From Crassaminicella thermophila (GTDB lineage: Bacteria; Bacillota; Clostridia; Peptostreptococcales; Thermotaleaceae), in NCBI RefSeq assembly GCF_008152325.1, contig NZ_CP042243.1:439026-503025 (forward strand): a DNA stretch of 64,000 bases, written 5' to 3'. Below are positions 39,691 through 51,507 of the stretch, one piece after another. Position numbers and translations under genes: made by a program. Numbering within the stretch: the first letter of the stretch is position 1; every line of letters begins with the position of its first letter. The notes beneath the pieces are model-generated. The model was given only the letters and a program-made list of their open reading frames with translations. It made no database searches and had not been told where the DNA came from.

Positions 39691-40269
39691 ATGGAAGAAA
39701 TTAATAGGGAAGAATTAAATCTTGAAACTACAGATATTGAAGTGTTAGATATAAAAGATTTAGAACAGCTAAAAGATAAGGAAAAATCTAGTCGTGCTTT
39801 ATCAGATATGATTTCTAGCTTACTAAGTAATGATAAAATACTTTCGATTATATTATTTACTTTGTTAAGGAGAGAAGAAGAAAAAGCTGTTAAACCTTAT
39901 TGGGGAGATAAATTAAAAGAAGTAATAGTAAAAGCAGAGAATATTTTAGATATTATGTATGCATTAAATAATTATGCAAAAAATCAAGCTGAATTTGGCA
40001 GCCAGCTAGCGGCAAAAAATAAGACAATGGAATTATTAGAGGTTATAAGACCACATGTACATGGGAGAGGAAGACAAAAAATAGATCAAGCACTTGCAGT
40101 AAATGACAGAATCAATAGACTAAAAGAAAATTCTAAAAAAAATAGAAATGTAATACAAGATTTTGAGAATATAGCAGATATTTTAGAAATACTCGAATTG
40201 AATGAAGGCTATGAAATGAAAAGATTTTTAGATAAAGCTAAGAGGATTATGGAAATTTTAAGAAAATAA
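39691..40269 (+). CDS. Hypothetical helical protein, 192 aa
   Basis: No family recognised. Highly charged and predicted all-helical. The N-terminus is acidic (EEINREELNLETTDIEVLD), residues ~35-65 contain a hydrophobic helix (MISSLLSNDKILSIILFTLL), and the C-terminus is Lys/Arg-rich with leucine spacing suggesting coiled coil. A central MELLEVIRPHVHGRGRQKID segment is distinctive. It has a strong AGGAGGGAGG site. No membrane span or signal peptide is evident. It is monocistronic by context. Confidence 0.6.
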   Translation: MEEINREELNLETTDIEVLDIKDLEQLKDKEKSSRALSDMISSLLSNDKILSIILFTLLRREEEKAVKPYWGDKLKEVIVKAENILDIMYALNNYAKNQAEFGSQLAAKNKTMELLEVIRPHVHGRGRQKIDQALAVNDRINRLKENSKKNRNVIQDFENIADILEILELNEGYEMKRFLDKAKRIMEILRK

Positions 40270-40301
40270 GAGTTTCTGCAGGAAGCAGGAACTTTTTTCT
40301 T
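40270..40301 (+). terminator. Terminator
   Basis: AGTTTCTGC pairs (with one G-T pair) with GCAGGAACT around AGGAA, followed by TTTTTTCTTTTTT. Confidence 0.75.
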
Positions 40302-40333
40302 TTTTAAATTTCTTATTTAAGGGAAAAATATAT

Positions 40334-40470
40334 AATAAGTAATTTAAAAGAAAATATAAAAGATAGTTCATTCCAGATAGCTTTTGGAAAAACTAAACTT
40401 CATTACATTCAGTAAGTTTTTTTACAAAAGCTATCAAAGTCATTCGCTTATCTTTTTATATTTTTATGTT
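40334..40470 (+). repeat. Palindromic element, short inner-deleted copy E with compensated arm
   Basis: Lacks the central CATGAAAAAATAC...GTATTTTTTCATG hairpin and the ACCTTCA/TGAAGGT tip of the long copies. The arms read GATAGCTTTTG on the left and CAAAAGCTATC on the right, whereas other copies have GATAACTTTTG and CAAAAGTTATC. The substitution is matched on both sides, keeping perfect pairing. Confidence 0.85.
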
Positions 40471-40516
40471 ACTTATTTATTAAGTTAAAATGAAATATTT
40501 TGTCGATAAAAAACTG

Positions 40517-40545
40517 TTGACATAGATAGAAAAATATACTAAAAT
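40517..40545 (+). promoter_or_regulatory. Sigma-A promoter of the selenoprotein gene
   Basis: TTGACA, a 17-base spacer and TAAAAT. It is near-consensus. The candidate operator begins six bases after the -10 box, where a bound repressor would block initiation. Confidence 0.8.
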
Positions 40546-40550
40546 ATAAT

Positions 40551-40575
40551 TACCAACCCCCTATGGGGAGGGGTA
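40551..40575. promoter_or_regulatory. Candidate CsoR/CstR-family operator
   Basis: Symmetric around base 40563: outer TACC...GGTA and inner CCCC-TAT-GGGG. This G/C-tract dyad in an AT-rich background resembles operators of the CsoR/RcnR/CstR family, which sense copper, nickel, formaldehyde or persulfide. No such regulator is encoded in the window. Similar but weaker dyad ATACC...GGTAT lies upstream of the glutaredoxin gene. Confidence 0.5.
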
Positions 40576-40594
40576 CAAAAAAGGAGGTAAGAAT

Positions 40595-40900
40595 ATGCTT
40601 ATAAATATTTCTCAAAAAGCTGAGGAAATGATAAAAAGTCAACTAAAAGATAAAAATAATGAGAATGCTTTCTTAAGAATCTTTATCAAAGGCTTTGGAT
40701 GAGGTGGTCCAACATTTGGAATAGCCCTGGAAGGGTCTAAAGATGATGAAAAAGATTACTATGAAGAAATAAATGGATTGAAAGTAATAGTAGAAAAAGA
40801 TATTCTTAATCAGTTTAAGAGTTTTAGTATTGATTATACTAATAGTTGGTTTTCTAAAGGGTTTAGAATTATACCAGGTGAGGGAGGCTCATCCTGTTAA
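40595..40900 (+). CDS. HesB-like selenoprotein (in-frame UGA read as selenocysteine)
   Basis: 101 residues when TGA at 40700-40702 is read through as Sec36, in the motif KGFG-U-GGPTFG. Both sides are one continuous reading frame, with AAGGAGG before the ATG and a normal TAA after the C-terminal GGSSC. The fold is HesB/IscA-like (ISQKAEEMIK at the start, FRIIPGEGGSSC at the end), where Cys residues bind Fe-S or metal; a HesB-like Sec family is known from surveys of prokaryotic selenoproteins. Short hairpins directly after the UGA (TCCAA/TTGGA at 40708-40720; GCCCT/AGGGT at 40724-40736) could be part of a bacterial SECIS, not verified. It is the first gene of a unit with a membrane Fe-S protein and a glutaredoxin. 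Confidence 0.85.
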
Positions 40901-40909
40901 ACAAAAGAA

Positions 40910-40945
40910 AACATCCAAGTGCAATTTGTGCTTGGATGTTAAAAT
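40910..40945 (+). terminator. Hairpin after the selenoprotein gene
   Basis: AACATCCAAG pairs with CTTGGATGTT around 11 bases. The T-run is weak (the tail is AAAATG), so partial read-through into the Fe-S membrane protein gene is possible. Confidence 0.65.
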
Positions 40946-40978
40946 GTTATAAAGTTTTATAGGAAAGGAGAGGAGAAT

Positions 40979-41497
40979 ATGGCTGCAAAAAAGTCACATC
41001 AATCATGGTCATGGATATTAATGGTTTTGTTTTTTATATTAGCTATTGTTGATGTAAGATTTGGATTATTGGGATTTGTTTGTATGGCTGCTCCTATTTA
41101 TCATGCGTTAAGAGGGAGAGGAAAAATTCACTGCTCAAAATATTGTCCTAGGGGATCAATACTAGGAAATTTTCTTAAATATGTAAGTTTAGATAAAAAT
41201 TTACCAAAAGCTTTAAGAGGGAAATCAGCTAAAAATATATTGTTGACATTGATGATGATTATGTTTAGTATATCATTATATCATGCTTTTCAAGCACCAA
41301 ATGTTATTAAAGCTGTAGGTTTTGCTATTTTTAGATTAATGGTAGCATCATCTATACTAGCTTTTATAATGGGAGTTATATTTAAGCCAAGAAGCTGGTG
41401 TCAAGTATGCCCTATGGGTCATACAACAGCATTAATAAAACAAAGTCAAGATAGAAAGAAAATGATTAATAAAAAAGCAGCAACAATTTGTGAATAA
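40979..41497 (+). CDS. Membrane 4Fe-4S-binding protein (NapH/YccM-like)
   Basis: 172 residues with membrane segments at ~12-45, ~82-100 and ~112-130. Two Cys motifs, CSKYCPRGS near residue 45 and CQVCPMGH near 141, match half-clusters of NapH/CcoG-type polytopic Fe-S proteins, here without the C-terminal ferredoxin domain. It probably moves electrons between quinone or cytosolic donors and a membrane or extracytoplasmic partner. GAAAGGAGAGG precedes the ATG. Its position between a selenoprotein and a glutaredoxin suggests a shared redox task. Confidence 0.8.
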   Translation: MAAKKSHQSWSWILMVLFFILAIVDVRFGLLGFVCMAAPIYHALRGRGKIHCSKYCPRGSILGNFLKYVSLDKNLPKALRGKSAKNILLTLMMIMFSISLYHAFQAPNVIKAVGFAIFRLMVASSILAFIMGVIFKPRSWCQVCPMGHTTALIKQSQDRKKMINKKAATICE

Positions 41498-41501
41498 ATT
41501 G

Positions 41502-41517
41502 ATACCTTATTGGGTAT
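41502..41517. promoter_or_regulatory. Second candidate dyad operator upstream of the glutaredoxin gene
   Basis: ATACC and GGTAT face each other across six bases (the right side reads GGGTAT). The half-site resembles the outer part of the dyad at 40551-40575. It lies 36 bases before the glutaredoxin ATG. Could be chance. Confidence 0.35.
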
Positions 41518-41552
41518 ATCATAATTATATGAAATAAAAGGAGGAATTTTAT

Positions 41553-41783
41553 ATGAGTAAAAATGTAGTAGTATATTCAAGTGATACTTGTATATATTGT
41601 AAAGATGCAAAGGAATATTTAAAATCTTTAGGTGTTGAGTACATTGAAAAAAATGTTTCAAAGGATATGGCTGCACGTAAAGAATTAATAAAAAAAGGGT
41701 TTATGGGAGTACCTGTTATTATGGTAGGAGATGAAACCATTCAAGGCTTTGATAAAGATAGGTTAGATGCATTATTAAAATAA
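41553..41783 (+). CDS. Glutaredoxin-like thiol oxidoreductase
   Basis: 76 residues, single thioredoxin-fold domain. The redox motif is C13-IY-C16 after VVYSSDT, and the cis-Pro loop is GVPVIMVGDE near residue 53, followed by GFDKDRLD. NrdH or clostridial glutaredoxin-family proteins of this size reduce disulfides or handle persulfides. AAAGGAGGA precedes the ATG. It is probably functionally linked with the selenoprotein and Fe-S membrane protein, and a strong terminator follows. Confidence 0.92.
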   Translation: MSKNVVVYSSDTCIYCKDAKEYLKSLGVEYIEKNVSKDMAARKELIKKGFMGVPVIMVGDETIQGFDKDRLDALLK

Positions 41784-41796
41784 GAAAGTCTTTTAT

Positions 41797-41836
41797 AAAA
41801 AAACCGTGTTACGATTTTCGTAACACGGTTTTTTAA
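41797..41836 (+). terminator. Terminator of the glutaredoxin gene
   Basis: AAAAAACCGTGTTACG pairs with CGTAACACGGTTTTTT around ATTTT. Very strong. Confidence 0.95.
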
Positions 41837-41919
41837 AATTCTTCTGTTTAAAATTTATATAAATTGTAAACAATGATATAGAAGATAGAGGAATTGCAAA
41901 TAGAAAGGATAGGATAAGT

Positions 41920-42924
41920 ATGAAAATTGGCATACCTAGGGGACTTTTATATTACTACTACTATCCGCTTTGGACAAAGTTTTTTGAGACGCTTGAAGCA
42001 GAGGTGGTGGTATCTGAAAAAACAAATAAACAGATTATAGATTATGGAGTTAAAAATACAGTAGATGAAGCTTGCTTGCCTGTGAAAGTATATCATGGTC
42101 ATGTGATTGCTTTAAAGGATAAGGTTGATTATATTTTTGTACCAAAGATTATGAGCATTTATAAAAATGAATATATTTGTCCAAAGTTTTGTGGACTACC
42201 AGAAATGATTAAAAGTGCAGTAAAAGATTTACCGCCAATTATAGATACAACAATAGATTTTCACAAATCAAAGAAAAATTTACCAAAAACTGTTCATGAG
42301 ATCGGAAAAATTATTACAACAGATAAAAAGAAAATAGATTTTGCTTTTAGAGAAGCAATAAAACAGCATGAGAGCTATAAGGCAAAAATAAAGGATGGAA
42401 TATTACCGGTTGATATAGAAGGGAATAAGGTTTTTAAATATATAAATCCATATAAATATAGACAAAAAATTGTTCTTTTAGGACATCCTTATAATATTTA
42501 TGATAAATATCTTAGTATGAACATTATAGAAAAATTAAGAAAGTATGGACTTGAAGTTTTAACGCAAGATAGCTTCGATCGAAATATTATTAATAAGAAG
42601 GCAGCAACTATGGATAAGAAGATGTTTTGGAGTTTTGGAAGAAAAGTACTTGGAGCTGCTTTTCATGCAATGGAGAGAGAAGATATTCAAGGGATAATTT
42701 ACTTATCAAGCTTTGGCTGTGGATTAGATTCTGTTATAGCAGATATTGCAGAACGCCGTACGCGAAGGAGTTCAGAAAAGCCTTTTATTTTACTTACTTT
42801 AGATGAGCATACAGGAGAAGCAGGAATAGATACAAGGATAGAGGCCTTTGTAGACATGATTAAATGGAGGGGAAAAAATGAAAATAACTTTTCCACATAT
42901 GGGGAATACATATCTACCCGTTAA
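41920..42924 (+). CDS. 2-hydroxyacyl-CoA dehydratase-like/activase-related protein (first of pair)
   Basis: 334 residues. The N-terminal MKIGIPRGLLYYYYYP, VDEACLPVKVYHGH and FCGLPEM, and the C-terminal SFGCGLDSV and DEHTGEAGIDTRIEAFVDM, are the hallmarks of the COG3581-type activase-related proteins. Conserved Cys in EACLP, YICPKFCG and FGCG probably bind a 4Fe-4S cluster. In many clostridia this domain is part of a ~1,400-residue single protein; here it is a separate gene. It overlaps the next gene by 47 bases, so the three genes form a coupled operon. The physiological role is unknown. Confidence 0.85.
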   Translation: MKIGIPRGLLYYYYYPLWTKFFETLEAEVVVSEKTNKQIIDYGVKNTVDEACLPVKVYHGHVIALKDKVDYIFVPKIMSIYKNEYICPKFCGLPEMIKSAVKDLPPIIDTTIDFHKSKKNLPKTVHEIGKIITTDKKKIDFAFREAIKQHESYKAKIKDGILPVDIEGNKVFKYINPYKYRQKIVLLGHPYNIYDKYLSMNIIEKLRKYGLEVLTQDSFDRNIINKKAATMDKKMFWSFGRKVLGAAFHAMEREDIQGIIYLSSFGCGLDSVIADIAERRTRRSSEKPFILLTLDEHTGEAGIDTRIEAFVDMIKWRGKNENNFSTYGEYISTR

Positions 42925-43987
42925 AGCTATGTTTGATGACTTGGGGGTAGAAGTTGTACTTCCTCCAAAAAATAGTAAAAAAACTTTAGAAATAGGTACA
43001 AAATATTCACCAGAACTAATATGCTTACCTATGAAAATAAATTTAGGAAATTACATACAAAGCATTGAAAAAGGTGCGGATACAATTCTTGTGACAGGAA
43101 GCTGTGGCCCTTGTAGATATGGATATTTTGCAGAGGTAGAAAAGGAAATTTTAAAAGATTTAGGTTACGATGTAGAATTCGTTATATTAGAAGCACCAGA
43201 TGGAGATCTGAAAGAATTTTATAATCGGGTAAGTAGAGTTGCCAATACAAAGAACATGATAAAGATTGGAAAAAGTTTAAAAAATGGGATTCAAGTATTG
43301 AGAAAATTAGATAAGTTTGAAGCAAGCGTATTAAAGCTTAGACCTTATGAAAAAAATAAAGGAGAGATTGATACTTTATATAAAGAGCTTATAAAGAACC
43401 TAGAAAAAAGTACAGGCTCTTCTCAAATGATCAAATATATCCATCAAGCACAAGAAGCAATAAAAGATATAGATCTTCAAAAAGATAGAGATGTTCTAAA
43501 AGTTGGGATTGTAGGTGAAATCTATACAATAATAGAAGATTTTGCAAATATAGACATTGGCAAAAAATTAAATGAGCTTGGAGCTGAGGTTCATAAATCG
43601 CATACTACATCAGGATGGGTACTAGAGCATTTATTTTACAATAGTATCGGTAGCACGAGAGAGAAGCAAGTAAGAAAAGCTGCAAAACCTTATATGAAGA
43701 CGATGGTAGGAGGGCATGGAAGGGAAACCATAGGAAATACTATATTGTATACGAAAGAAGGGTATGATGGTGTCATACAGATAATGCCTTTTACTTGTAT
43801 GCCTGAAATTGTTGCTATGAGTATATTACCAAAGCTACAGCAGGAGTATGGTATTCCTATTTTAACTCTGATTATTGATGAAATGACAGGTGAAGCAGGA
43901 TACGTTACTAGACTTGAAGCATATATTGATCTGCTAAGAAATAGGAGGGAAAAATATAAAAATGAGAAAATGTTATCTTGGCGTTGA
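42878..43987 (+). CDS. 2-hydroxyacyl-CoA dehydratase-like/activase-related protein (second of pair)
   Basis: 369 residues from the ATG at 42878 (GGAGGGG just before), starting inside the previous gene. KITFPHMGNTYLPVKA, the PELICLPMKINLGNY Cys, TGSCGPCRYGYF, MPFTCMPEIVA and DEMTGEAGYVTRLEAYID correspond motif by motif to its upstream neighbour, so the pair likely forms a heterodimer analogous to dehydratase alpha/beta subunits. The end overlaps the activase start by 26 bases. Confidence 0.85.
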   Translation: MKITFPHMGNTYLPVKAMFDDLGVEVVLPPKNSKKTLEIGTKYSPELICLPMKINLGNYIQSIEKGADTILVTGSCGPCRYGYFAEVEKEILKDLGYDVEFVILEAPDGDLKEFYNRVSRVANTKNMIKIGKSLKNGIQVLRKLDKFEASVLKLRPYEKNKGEIDTLYKELIKNLEKSTGSSQMIKYIHQAQEAIKDIDLQKDRDVLKVGIVGEIYTIIEDFANIDIGKKLNELGAEVHKSHTTSGWVLEHLFYNSIGSTREKQVRKAAKPYMKTMVGGHGRETIGNTILYTKEGYDGVIQIMPFTCMPEIVAMSILPKLQQEYGIPILTLIIDEMTGEAGYVTRLEAYIDLLRNRREKYKNEKMLSWR

Positions 43988-44945
43988 TATTGGCTCTGTA
44001 AGTACGAATATCATTGTGATGGATGAAGATGAAAATATACTAGATACATTGTATATAAGAACACAGGGCAAACCTATTGAGACTATTAAAAAAGGATTAT
44101 CTAAAATAAAAAATAGATTAGATGAAGATGTTAAGATTCTAGGGGTAGGTACTACTGGAAGCGGTAGGCAGCTCGGAGGAATTATGATAGGGGCTGATGT
44201 TATAAAAAATGAAATAACAGCCCATGGGATTGCTGCTTTAAACTTTGTGCCAGATGTTAAAACTATTATTGAAATTGGAGGACAAGATTCTAAGATTATT
44301 CTTTTAAGAGATGGTGTTTTATATGATTTTGCAATGAATACAGTTTGTGCTGCAGGGACAGGCTCATTTTTAGATAGACAAGCTGAAAGATTGGGTATTC
44401 CTATAGAAGAATTTGGGAAATTTGCTTTGAAATCAAAATTGCCTGTACGAATTGCTGGAAGATGTGCTGTTTTTGCAGAATCAGATATGATACATAAACA
44501 GCAATTAGGTCATAATCAAGAGGATATTATTAATGGTTTATGTGAAGCTTTGGTAAGAAATTATCTAAATAATCTAGGAAAGGGAAAAGAAATAAAACCA
44601 CCTATTGTATTTCAGGGAGGCGTTGCTGCAAATGTAGGGATTCGAAAAGCATTTGAAAAAATATTAGGCTGTGAAGTAATAGTTCCACCATATGCAAATG
44701 TAATGGGGGCAATAGGAGTAGCTTTATTAGCAAAAGAAGAAGTAGAAAGAGTAGGAAAAACAAATTTTAAAGGCTTTGAAGTTGCTGATAGTAGCTATAC
44801 TGTAAAAAGCTTTGAATGTGAATATTGTCCAAACATGTGTGAGGTAGTAGAATTTTTTAGAGACGAAAAAATGGTTGCTAGATGGGGAGATAAGTGTGGT
44901 CGTTGGAACAACATTGTAAGCATAAAAAACGAGAAACTAGCATAA
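43962..44945 (+). CDS. Acyl-CoA dehydratase activase family ATPase
   Basis: 327 residues. ASKHA motifs GVDIGSVSTN at the N-terminus, GTTGSGRQLGG, IIEIGGQDSK near residue 105 and FQGGVAAN near 225 are intact, and cluster Cys are in NTVCAAGTGSFLD (~130) and GRCAVFAESD (~168). A ~45-residue C-terminal extension adds a further Cys cluster (CEYCPNMCEVV and WGDKCGRW), absent from the 33.5-kb activase; this may bind an additional Fe-S cluster or zinc. It presumably energises the two upstream dehydratase-like proteins. Confidence 0.92.
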   Translation: MRKCYLGVDIGSVSTNIIVMDEDENILDTLYIRTQGKPIETIKKGLSKIKNRLDEDVKILGVGTTGSGRQLGGIMIGADVIKNEITAHGIAALNFVPDVKTIIEIGGQDSKIILLRDGVLYDFAMNTVCAAGTGSFLDRQAERLGIPIEEFGKFALKSKLPVRIAGRCAVFAESDMIHKQQLGHNQEDIINGLCEALVRNYLNNLGKGKEIKPPIVFQGGVAANVGIRKAFEKILGCEVIVPPYANVMGAIGVALLAKEEVERVGKTNFKGFEVADSSYTVKSFECEYCPNMCEVVEFFRDEKMVARWGDKCGRWNNIVSIKNEKLA

Positions 44946-46362: not shown

Positions 46363-46379
46363 GTTTAAAGGTAATAAAA

Positions 46380-46409
46380 ATGCCTTTTTGTCCAGAGGCA
46401 AAAAGGCAT
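46380..46409 (-). terminator. Attenuator terminator in the pyrB leader
   Basis: On the minus strand ATGCCTTTTTG pairs with CAAAAAGGCAT and is followed by TTTTTATT. It precedes pyrB and would stop transcription when pyrimidines are plentiful. Confidence 0.8.
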
Positions 46410-46450
46410 AAAAATACATAATATGATACATAAGTGTTTTTAGCCTTTTT

Positions 46451-46466
46451 AACCTCACGGGGTTAA
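46451..46466 (-). promoter_or_regulatory. PyrR binding loop in the pyrB leader
   Basis: The minus strand reads TTAACCCCGTGAGGTTAA, with a CCCCGTGAGG loop close to the PyrR anti-antiterminator consensus. With the terminator at 46380-46409 it forms the classic PyrR-UMP attenuation system. pyrR itself is not in the window. Confidence 0.7.
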
Positions 46467-46586
46467 TTTAAAGGTACATTATTTATATTAGACTATCATA
46501 TAAAGGGTTGAATGTCAATAAAAAGGAAAATGATGTTTAATGTAGAATATTACTTTTGATTACTCTATGTTATGAGGGGGATAGAG

Positions 46587-51329: not shown

Positions 51330-51362
51330 AATTTTCGACAAAATTCAATATAAATCTTGATG

Positions 51363-51507
51363 CCTTATCAAGAGTGGTAGAGGGACTAGGCCCTATGAAG
51401 CCCGGCAACCGGTATGTTTACACGGTGCTAAATCCTACAGAATGTATTTCTGAAAGATGAGGACAGAATCACAACAACCTCTTCTTGTAATGAAGAGGTT
51501 TTTTTAA
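51363..51507 (+). promoter_or_regulatory. SAM-I (S-box) riboswitch with terminator
   Basis: Conserved SAM-I sequence is clear: CTTATCAAGAGTGGTAGAGG, GACTAGGCCC, TGAAGCCCGGCAACC, GGTGCTAAATCC and GAAAGATGAGG, with P1 formed by CCTTATC (51363-51369) and GATGAGG (51456-51462). A terminator follows (AACCTCTTC with GAAGAGGTT then T7, ~51477-51507). High S-adenosylmethionine should end transcription before metK. Confidence 0.95.

Follow-up and report, generated by a model that had tools for sequence, protein, structure and literature searches.

A HesB-like selenoprotein gene of Crassaminicella thermophila preceded by a conserved CsoR-family operator-like dyad, with a putative place in a CstR-type reactive-sulfur regulon

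Among bacterial selenoproteins, those of the HesB-like type form one of the commoner families, with 86 organisms on record (PMC5029168). In Methanococcus maripaludis, mutagenesis and 75Se labelling identified a HesB-like selenoprotein, whose function is called not clear (PMC11097638). We analysed a 64,000-nucleotide (nt) stretch of the C. thermophila genome (G000), here termed the window, whose positions serve as coordinates throughout and which encodes a protein of this kind, termed HesB-Sec. The described TIGR01911 family has the same fold, insertion of selenocysteine (Sec) by UGA and the same UxGP motif (PMC13188914). HesB-Sec is a HesB-like selenoprotein of a kind already known and its sole deviation at the protein level is that it falls 1.45 bits short of the curated cut-off (64.9 versus 66.35 bits for TIGR01911, HesB_rel_seleno, its best NCBIfam match, with C for U in the query). 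Neither a repressor operator nor a link to CstR is mentioned for the family in the available parts of the two descriptions (PMC13188914, PMC11097638), and the literature searched, as far as its text was accessible, held no description linking HesB-like selenoproteins to CsoR/CstR or to a CstR-like reactive-sulfur operon. What appears to be new is the conserved putative operator before HesB-Sec.

Two regulators of the CsoR family offer the closest comparisons. CstR of Staphylococcus aureus is a dithiol repressor of sulfurtransferase genes whose regulon (cstA, cstB, sqr) probably comprises a single directly controlled operon (PMC5480029). The regulon proposed here differs in that the neighbouring genes encode a coenzyme A (CoA)-disulfide reductase/rhodanese, TusA and DsrE, and in that it would add a selenoprotein at another locus. 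TTHA1953 of Thermus thermophilus likewise regulates sulfur genes, acts at a distance from its own locus and has its strongest DNA binding in the reduced form, but its targets are Sox genes, long G tracts are absent from the sequence it binds and no selenoprotein is involved in the account available (PMC10318464). On the protein side, the A-type carriers IscA and SufA have the fold in common with HesB-Sec, which differs from them in its Sec and one tail cysteine. DsrR of Allochromatium vinosum (2k4z), the tenth match to our structural model (E=1.9e-03, TMq 0.75), also has the IscA-like fold; it is found among sulfur-oxidation genes, is not known to have the conserved cysteines and differs from HesB-Sec in having no Sec.

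The frame at 40595-40900 contains a single TGA (base 40700, U36) and is otherwise open to a TAA stop. With TGA read as U the product is MLINIS...KGFGUGGPTFG...GGSSC, in which U-G-G-P at residues 36-39 corresponds to the UxGP motif. This translation agrees with the initial annotation, which had described a frame running through the TGA within KGFG-U-GGP to a normal stop. The Sec machinery that the same annotation had proposed to look for is present in the genome, each component above its cut-off: selA (636.9 bits, cut-off 267.9), selB (409.6 bits, cut-off 242.25), selD (375.5 bits, cut-off 125) and tRNA-Sec (76.9 bits, gathering threshold 47), with selD, selA and selB in one run and tRNA-Sec ∼5 kb behind selB. 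Of the 393 genomes searched in the order, 167 contain a match to the HesB-Sec protein. The 50 top matches (49 genomes, own included) were chosen by rank and not by the stop, and every one has a single TGA at this codon, position 36 of HesB-Sec, with the frame intact beyond it; the surrounding motif is GUGGP in 48, GUAGP in one and TUGGP in one. Lower-ranked matches without an in-frame stop occur. A Cys-substituted protein query on the genome contigs found no relatives, probably because its patterns back-translate C and not UGA, and a second scan used a DNA pattern containing UGA.

Behind the TGA, a hairpin resembling a bacterial selenocysteine insertion sequence (SECIS) retains at least four of its five pairs in 46 of the 50 loci and its GGA loop in 49, the fifth pair being formed in just 15. 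Pairing was found in 206 of 250 cells compared with 184.1 when partners were shuffled (standard deviation 2.5, highest 193 in 1,000), a control that ignores relatedness, and none of the other hairpin registers tested rose above 27 of 50. The conserved peptide ALDE/ALEG may be the source of part of this signal. The energy of the single C. thermophila sequence, folded behind 40700 as suggested in the initial annotation, is no better than that of shuffles (z=−0.01, −0.70 and −0.40). Because selA, selB, selD and tRNA-Sec are present and UGA stands in all 50 best matches, Sec decoding at 40700 is supported at the level of sequence. The expectation that standard gene callers would split or miss the gene holds for the mechanical list of open reading frames (ORFs; minimum 60 amino acids), from which the frame is absent, but NCBIfam does contain models of the family; one of these, NF038090 (cut-off 85), is not reached by the C-for-U query at 63.5 bits. 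The selD gene (L049:1100-2144, G000:C1 ∼1.362 Mb) itself reads in frame SG-UGA-AAKIGPETLAQVL upstream of its listed TTG start, which we take to be the Sec site of SelD, and SelD appears to be a selenoprotein too.

The promoter, ribosome-binding site and 25-base dyad behind the −10 box are all as first described (Table 1). Promoter-like sites in 40250-41900 number 15 against 10.1 in shuffles; only the top score (11 of 12) is therefore telling. A TTGAC..TANNNT promoter lies upstream of 46 of the 50 HesB-Sec loci (own included). The pattern TACC-NN-CCCC-NNN-GGGG-NN-GGTA has one match in the window, with three mismatches, where 0.01 would be expected at up to three mismatches. The dyad is conserved in that a CCC...GGG dyad stands no more than 90 nt from the start codon at 44 of the 50 loci, beginning 0-25 nt past the −10 box of a TTGAC..TANNNT promoter at 42. 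At two further loci, L045 and L097, a compact dyad can be recognized by eye. The same pattern precedes 3 of 92 other mechanical ORFs (at least 100 amino acids, gene status unchecked) of these loci. Dinucleotide-shuffled upstream regions of the 50 loci still match the loose dyad pattern in 30% of cases because this shuffle keeps the C and G runs, and the ORF control is therefore given more weight. No dyad was found at L047, L108, L110 (a second copy in G116) or L114 (G174). The genome of L047 (G112) has no CsoR-family match, as would be expected if the dyad serves such a repressor.

In a further set of 117 loci, among the matches listed, 73 of 112 scored gene copies have the loose pattern and six more could not be scored; by group, the listed rows give 1 of 10 in Desulfosporosinus (one unscorable) and 2 of 4 among delta-proteobacterial matches. 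This test had no control and includes chance matches, and on these patterns the dyad is not confined to one family. A genome-wide scan for CCCC-N-GGGG gave 32 forward matches compared with 61 for a control pattern. The HesB-Sec and reductase promoters are among them, together with five other single sites and many recurrent copies of CCCCGGGG and CCCCGGGAGGGG, presumed to be rRNA genes. The scan therefore defines no regulon.

Two CsoR-family (PF02583) proteins are encoded in the genome, one of them CstR-like; the initial annotation had proposed to search for a CsoR/CstR homologue. The first gene lies downstream of copA and copZ, and the copA promoter carries ATACCCTAGGGGGGTAT. The second (L051:5040-5330, G000:C1 2.852 Mb; 85.8 bits, cut-off 22.8) has upstream of it the genes for TusA, DsrE and a CoA-disulfide reductase that includes a rhodanese domain. 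The promoter of this operon carries AAACCCCGCCATGGGGGGCGGGG directly past its −10 box. CoA-disulfide reductase/rhodanese enzymes reduce persulfides. In common with CstR, the CstR-like protein has two sensor cysteines (Cys42 and Cys71) and adjacent sulfurtransferase genes. CstR is not known to have the His of the copper triad; residue 67 is His in the C. thermophila protein and N, Y or H in relatives, and no NCBIfam model matches at its cut-off. At L125 (G090), AACCCCCCTGCGTAGGGG stands directly before the CstR-like gene, suggesting that this gene is self-regulated.

The CstR-like gene and HesB-Sec occur together across the order. With thresholds chosen after the scores had been seen, a CstR-like gene (at least 74 bits) is present in 69 of 393 genomes and HesB-Sec with TGA (at least 50 bits) in 75, and 52 genomes have both compared with 13.2 expected (Fisher P=7e-32, ignoring phylogeny). 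In 19 of these 52 no more than 12 kb separates the two; the distances run from 657 bases in G085, where glutaredoxin is interposed, to 9.4 kb, and the count covered the CstR-like set only. All eight reductase promoters adjoining HesB-Sec (L104, L106 and L116-L121) have the dyad, five further loci with a reductase-like match lying outside the count. The gene order at L119 is HesB-Sec, glutaredoxin, a Crp/Fnr-type regulator, a ferredoxin-like protein (these two named by eye), hybrid cluster protein, a reductase-TusA-DsrE fusion and the CstR-like gene. Hybrid cluster protein (hydroxylamine reductase) and the Crp/Fnr-type regulator also lie between HesB-Sec/glutaredoxin and the reductase genes at L116, L120 and L121, with the ferredoxin-like protein at L120 and L121 as well; hybrid cluster protein and the Crp/Fnr-type regulator hint at a nitrosative-stress link.

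Operators were scored by local alignment against the operators of other genomes, comprising 11 from reductase operons and 13 from copA, and the HesB operators compared were all 14 of family f1, to which the window belongs, and 3 of the 4 of f6 (G057 was left out). The reductase (11/11) and copA (13/13) operators group with their own kind, and all 14 f1 HesB operators are on average closer to the reductase set. The compact form TACC-GGGGTA occurs in 13/13 copA, 0/11 reductase and 1/17 HesB operators and a split second G tract in 0/13, 9/11 and 14/17, respectively, by expressions that were written after the sequences had been seen. Within the six single genomes that have all three operators, HesB is closer to the reductase operator in four and to copA in two. 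Control of HesB-Sec by the CsoR family is well supported by these sequence patterns, and a CstR-like repressor rather than the copper-sensing CsoR is moderately supported.

Our favoured reading, which we judge on balance probable, places HesB-Sec, the membrane iron-sulfur (Fe-S) protein and the glutaredoxin encoded next to it as a module in a CstR-type reactive-sulfur regulon. Starting from the observed reading frame, Sec machinery, conservation, operator similarity and gene linkage, we infer the binding paralogue, the signal, co-transcription and the chemistry as follows. The UGA would be read through by the organism's own SelA, SelB, SelD and tRNA-Sec. A CsoR-family repressor, most likely the CstR-like paralogue at 2.852 Mb, would bind over the transcription start and repress the HesB-Sec promoter until reactive sulfur (persulfide or polysulfide), or perhaps selenium in the equivalent chemical state, modified its two cysteines and released it. 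Release would turn on the HesB-Sec, membrane Fe-S protein and glutaredoxin genes together with the reductase-TusA-DsrE operon. HesB-Sec would then use its Sec and Cys as a redox pair for accepting or reducing sulfane sulfur, with glutaredoxin recycling the protein. A more specific proposal, which we offer tentatively, is that HesB-like selenoproteins are dedicated Sec/Cys acceptor-reductases of persulfide (or hydroselenide), switched on by a persulfide-sensing CstR-type repressor along with a persulfide-reductase operon; Sec36 would take the sulfane sulfur, the tail Cys would resolve it and the YruB-type glutaredoxin would recycle the protein.

Several observations weigh against the assignment to a CstR-type regulon. 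The HesB-Sec gene (0.480 Mb) and the CstR-like gene (2.852 Mb) are far apart in the C. thermophila genome, and the CstR-like protein there keeps what we take to be the Cys-His-Cys set of copper CsoR. CstR-like scores fall through 76.9, 74.1 and 71.9 without a sharp gap, and 23 of the 75 HesB-Sec genomes have no CstR-like match at 74 bits. In G052 a dyad and a reductase fusion occur without a CstR-like match, and G012 has the dyad without any CsoR-family match; the reductase operon of G012 also has the dyad and its contig ends ∼1.1 kb behind dsrE, and a repressor gene in the gap is therefore possible. Conversely, G174 (L114) has a CstR-like gene 2.9 kb away, yet no dyad before HesB. The own-genome HesB operator scores 30 with copA and 25 with the reductase operon, that of G096 scores 26 and 24, the f1 averages are nearly equal in G096 and G084, and the three f6 operators tested are all closer to the copA set. 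The Fer4_5 protein is near HesB-Sec at 18 of the 30 best loci and at none of the next 20, and glutaredoxin at 25 of 30 and 2 of 20; the three-gene set therefore belongs to the closer relatives. Finally, the IscA-like fold of HesB-Sec leaves room for Fe-S work.

This last point bears on a somewhat unlikely alternative, that HesB-Sec is an ordinary Fe-S carrier and sulfur stress just raises the demand for cluster repair. The protein matches PF01521 above cut-off (32.3 versus 26.3 bits). The AlphaFold2 model (13 sequences; mean predicted local distance difference test score, pLDDT, 84) has IscA/SufA-type structures as its top matches (1r94, 1x0g and 2d2a; IscA 1r94 at E=4.1e-06, TMq 0.72), of which 1x0g is an entry with a [2Fe-2S] cluster. 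The neighbouring protein has a Fer4_5 match, and two subunits jointly could offer four ligands. IscA, however, has three conserved ligand cysteines, whereas all 50 relatives have a Cys within the last eight residues that is the sole Cys in 47, leaving one Sec and one C-terminal-tail Cys as the only such residues in those 47. As judged from these sequences, the multi-cysteine cluster site of IscA is lost in HesB-Sec, and since only Sec and one tail Cys are left, a redox pair is therefore more likely than an Fe-S scaffold. Residues 99-101 of the model have pLDDT below 50, and an IscA fold in which Sec is accompanied by just a mobile tail Cys agrees with a role in redox chemistry or sulfur transfer, the two residues forming a pair that glutaredoxin could recycle.

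Copper damages Fe-S clusters, and the operator could instead be that of the copper repressor CsoR or of a third CsoR-family paralogue, with HesB-Sec protecting or repairing Fe-S proteins under copper stress. We consider this unlikely. The own-genome scores and the f6 operators point towards the copA type, and a further paralogue does exist in f4 (L070, L073 and L074), f6 (L067-L069 and L071) and f12 (L082), between genes that by eye look like aspS and the gene of an RseC-like protein, with a compact dyad, again by eye, at its own promoter at L067, L069 and L082. Against copper stand the 14 f1 operators that are on average closer to the reductase type, the compact form that is universal in the copA set, absent from the reductase set and found in a single HesB operator, and the 19 close linkages, which are with the CstR-like set, the only one counted. 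None of the 50 HesB loci, with flanks mostly of 0.6-2.6 kb, showed a copA gene. It is possible that the repressor partner has changed between lineages.

Much of the dyad is probably transcribed, lying as it does between the −10 box and the ribosome-binding site, and its arms are able to pair, as would be expected of an RNA hairpin in the 5′ leader acting as an attenuator or stability element instead of a repressor site. We regard this as very unlikely: similar dyads stand at the same place in the copA and reductase promoters, no Rfam RNA family matches the dyad at the gathering threshold and its form fits CsoR-family operators, of which type 2, in the available description, has two short G/C tracts 2-4 bases apart flanked by TAC/GTA repeats (PMC3902906). 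The tracts CCCCC-TAT-GGGG at 40557-40568 conform to this description, but the TAC-GTA spacing at 40551-40575 is 19 bases instead of about 9-11; the dyad is therefore called operator-like and not a proven type 2 site. That the UGA is a true stop and the gene a decayed or truncated hesB is extremely improbable, since, for all that the single-sequence hairpin stability is not above shuffles, the codon and the downstream frame are intact in the 50 best matches and the genome has the Sec machinery.

The remaining features of the locus are collected in Table 1. The glutaredoxin-like protein scores 86.2 bits with TIGR02196, below the cut-off of 88.55. The weaker dyad before its gene, which the initial annotation had offered as a second operator, is rejected, TACC..GGTA being kept in 1 of 25 loci, the C. 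thermophila locus itself, and it is probably a chance occurrence. The other observations that the annotation had named as refuting its reading were not made: the genome has selB and tRNA-Sec, the 50 best matches keep UGA at position 36, a CsoR/CstR-type gene is present and the main dyad is conserved. Directly past the glutaredoxin gene, 41920-44945 holds 2-hydroxyacyl-CoA dehydratase activator-type genes (DUF2229 by domain search, the rest by eye). Upstream, a 192-residue ORF at 39691-40269 matches nothing in Pfam or NCBIfam at E=0.001. Between it and the promoter lies an AT-rich element with inverted arms (40333-40361/40454-40482) and 61 matches in the genome (self included, many in two halves; 40 of 217 candidates scored), which looks like a small dispersed repeat resembling a miniature inverted-repeat transposable element; L051 has a related copy upstream of its CstR-like gene.

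Table 1. Positions in the window of the HesB-Sec gene, its predicted control elements and neighbouring features.
Feature	Position	Strand	Basis
Palindromic dispersed repeat, 150 nt, at the left edge of the module and outside it	40333-40482		Own-genome copies, inverted arms
Sigma-70-type promoter, TTGACA-17-TAAAAT	40517-40545	+	11/12 consensus positions
CsoR/CstR-family operator-like dyad, TACCAACCCCCTATGGGGAGGGGTA, 25 bases, 5 nt past the −10 box	40551-40575		Pattern, conservation
Ribosome-binding site, AGGAGG	40582-40587	+	Read from sequence
HesB-like selenoprotein gene	40595-40900	+	101 residues, Sec36, single Cys at C terminus; Pfam/NCBIfam matches, IscA-like model
In-frame UGA, predicted to be read as Sec	40700-40702	+	Codon conserved as UGA across the 50 top-ranked matches (own included)
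Bacterial SECIS-like hairpin, GCCCUGGAAGGGU, apical GGA	40724-40736	+	Pairing kept across loci
Membrane protein with Fer4_5 match	40979-41497	+	PF12801, 25.5 bits, cut-off 22; 'membrane' read from hydrophobic sequence
Weak dyad before glutaredoxin, ATACC..GGTAT	41502-41517		Kept in 1/25 loci
Glutaredoxin-like protein, CIYC active site, YruB type	41553-41783	+	PF00462, 64.7 bits, cut-off 22.9
PyrR-binding leader	46374-46478	-	Rfam; ordinary
S-adenosylmethionine (SAM) riboswitch	51362-51463	+	Rfam; ordinary

The conserved operator-like dyad and the linkage to a CstR-like gene make the function of HesB-Sec testable through repressor binding, induction by polysulfide and reduction of persulfide. 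They would also suggest that cells invest selenium in reactive-sulfur chemistry. If the more specific proposal of a dedicated Sec/Cys acceptor-reductase is true, a selenoprotein would be under the control of a sulfur sensor and a family of unclear role would gain a function.

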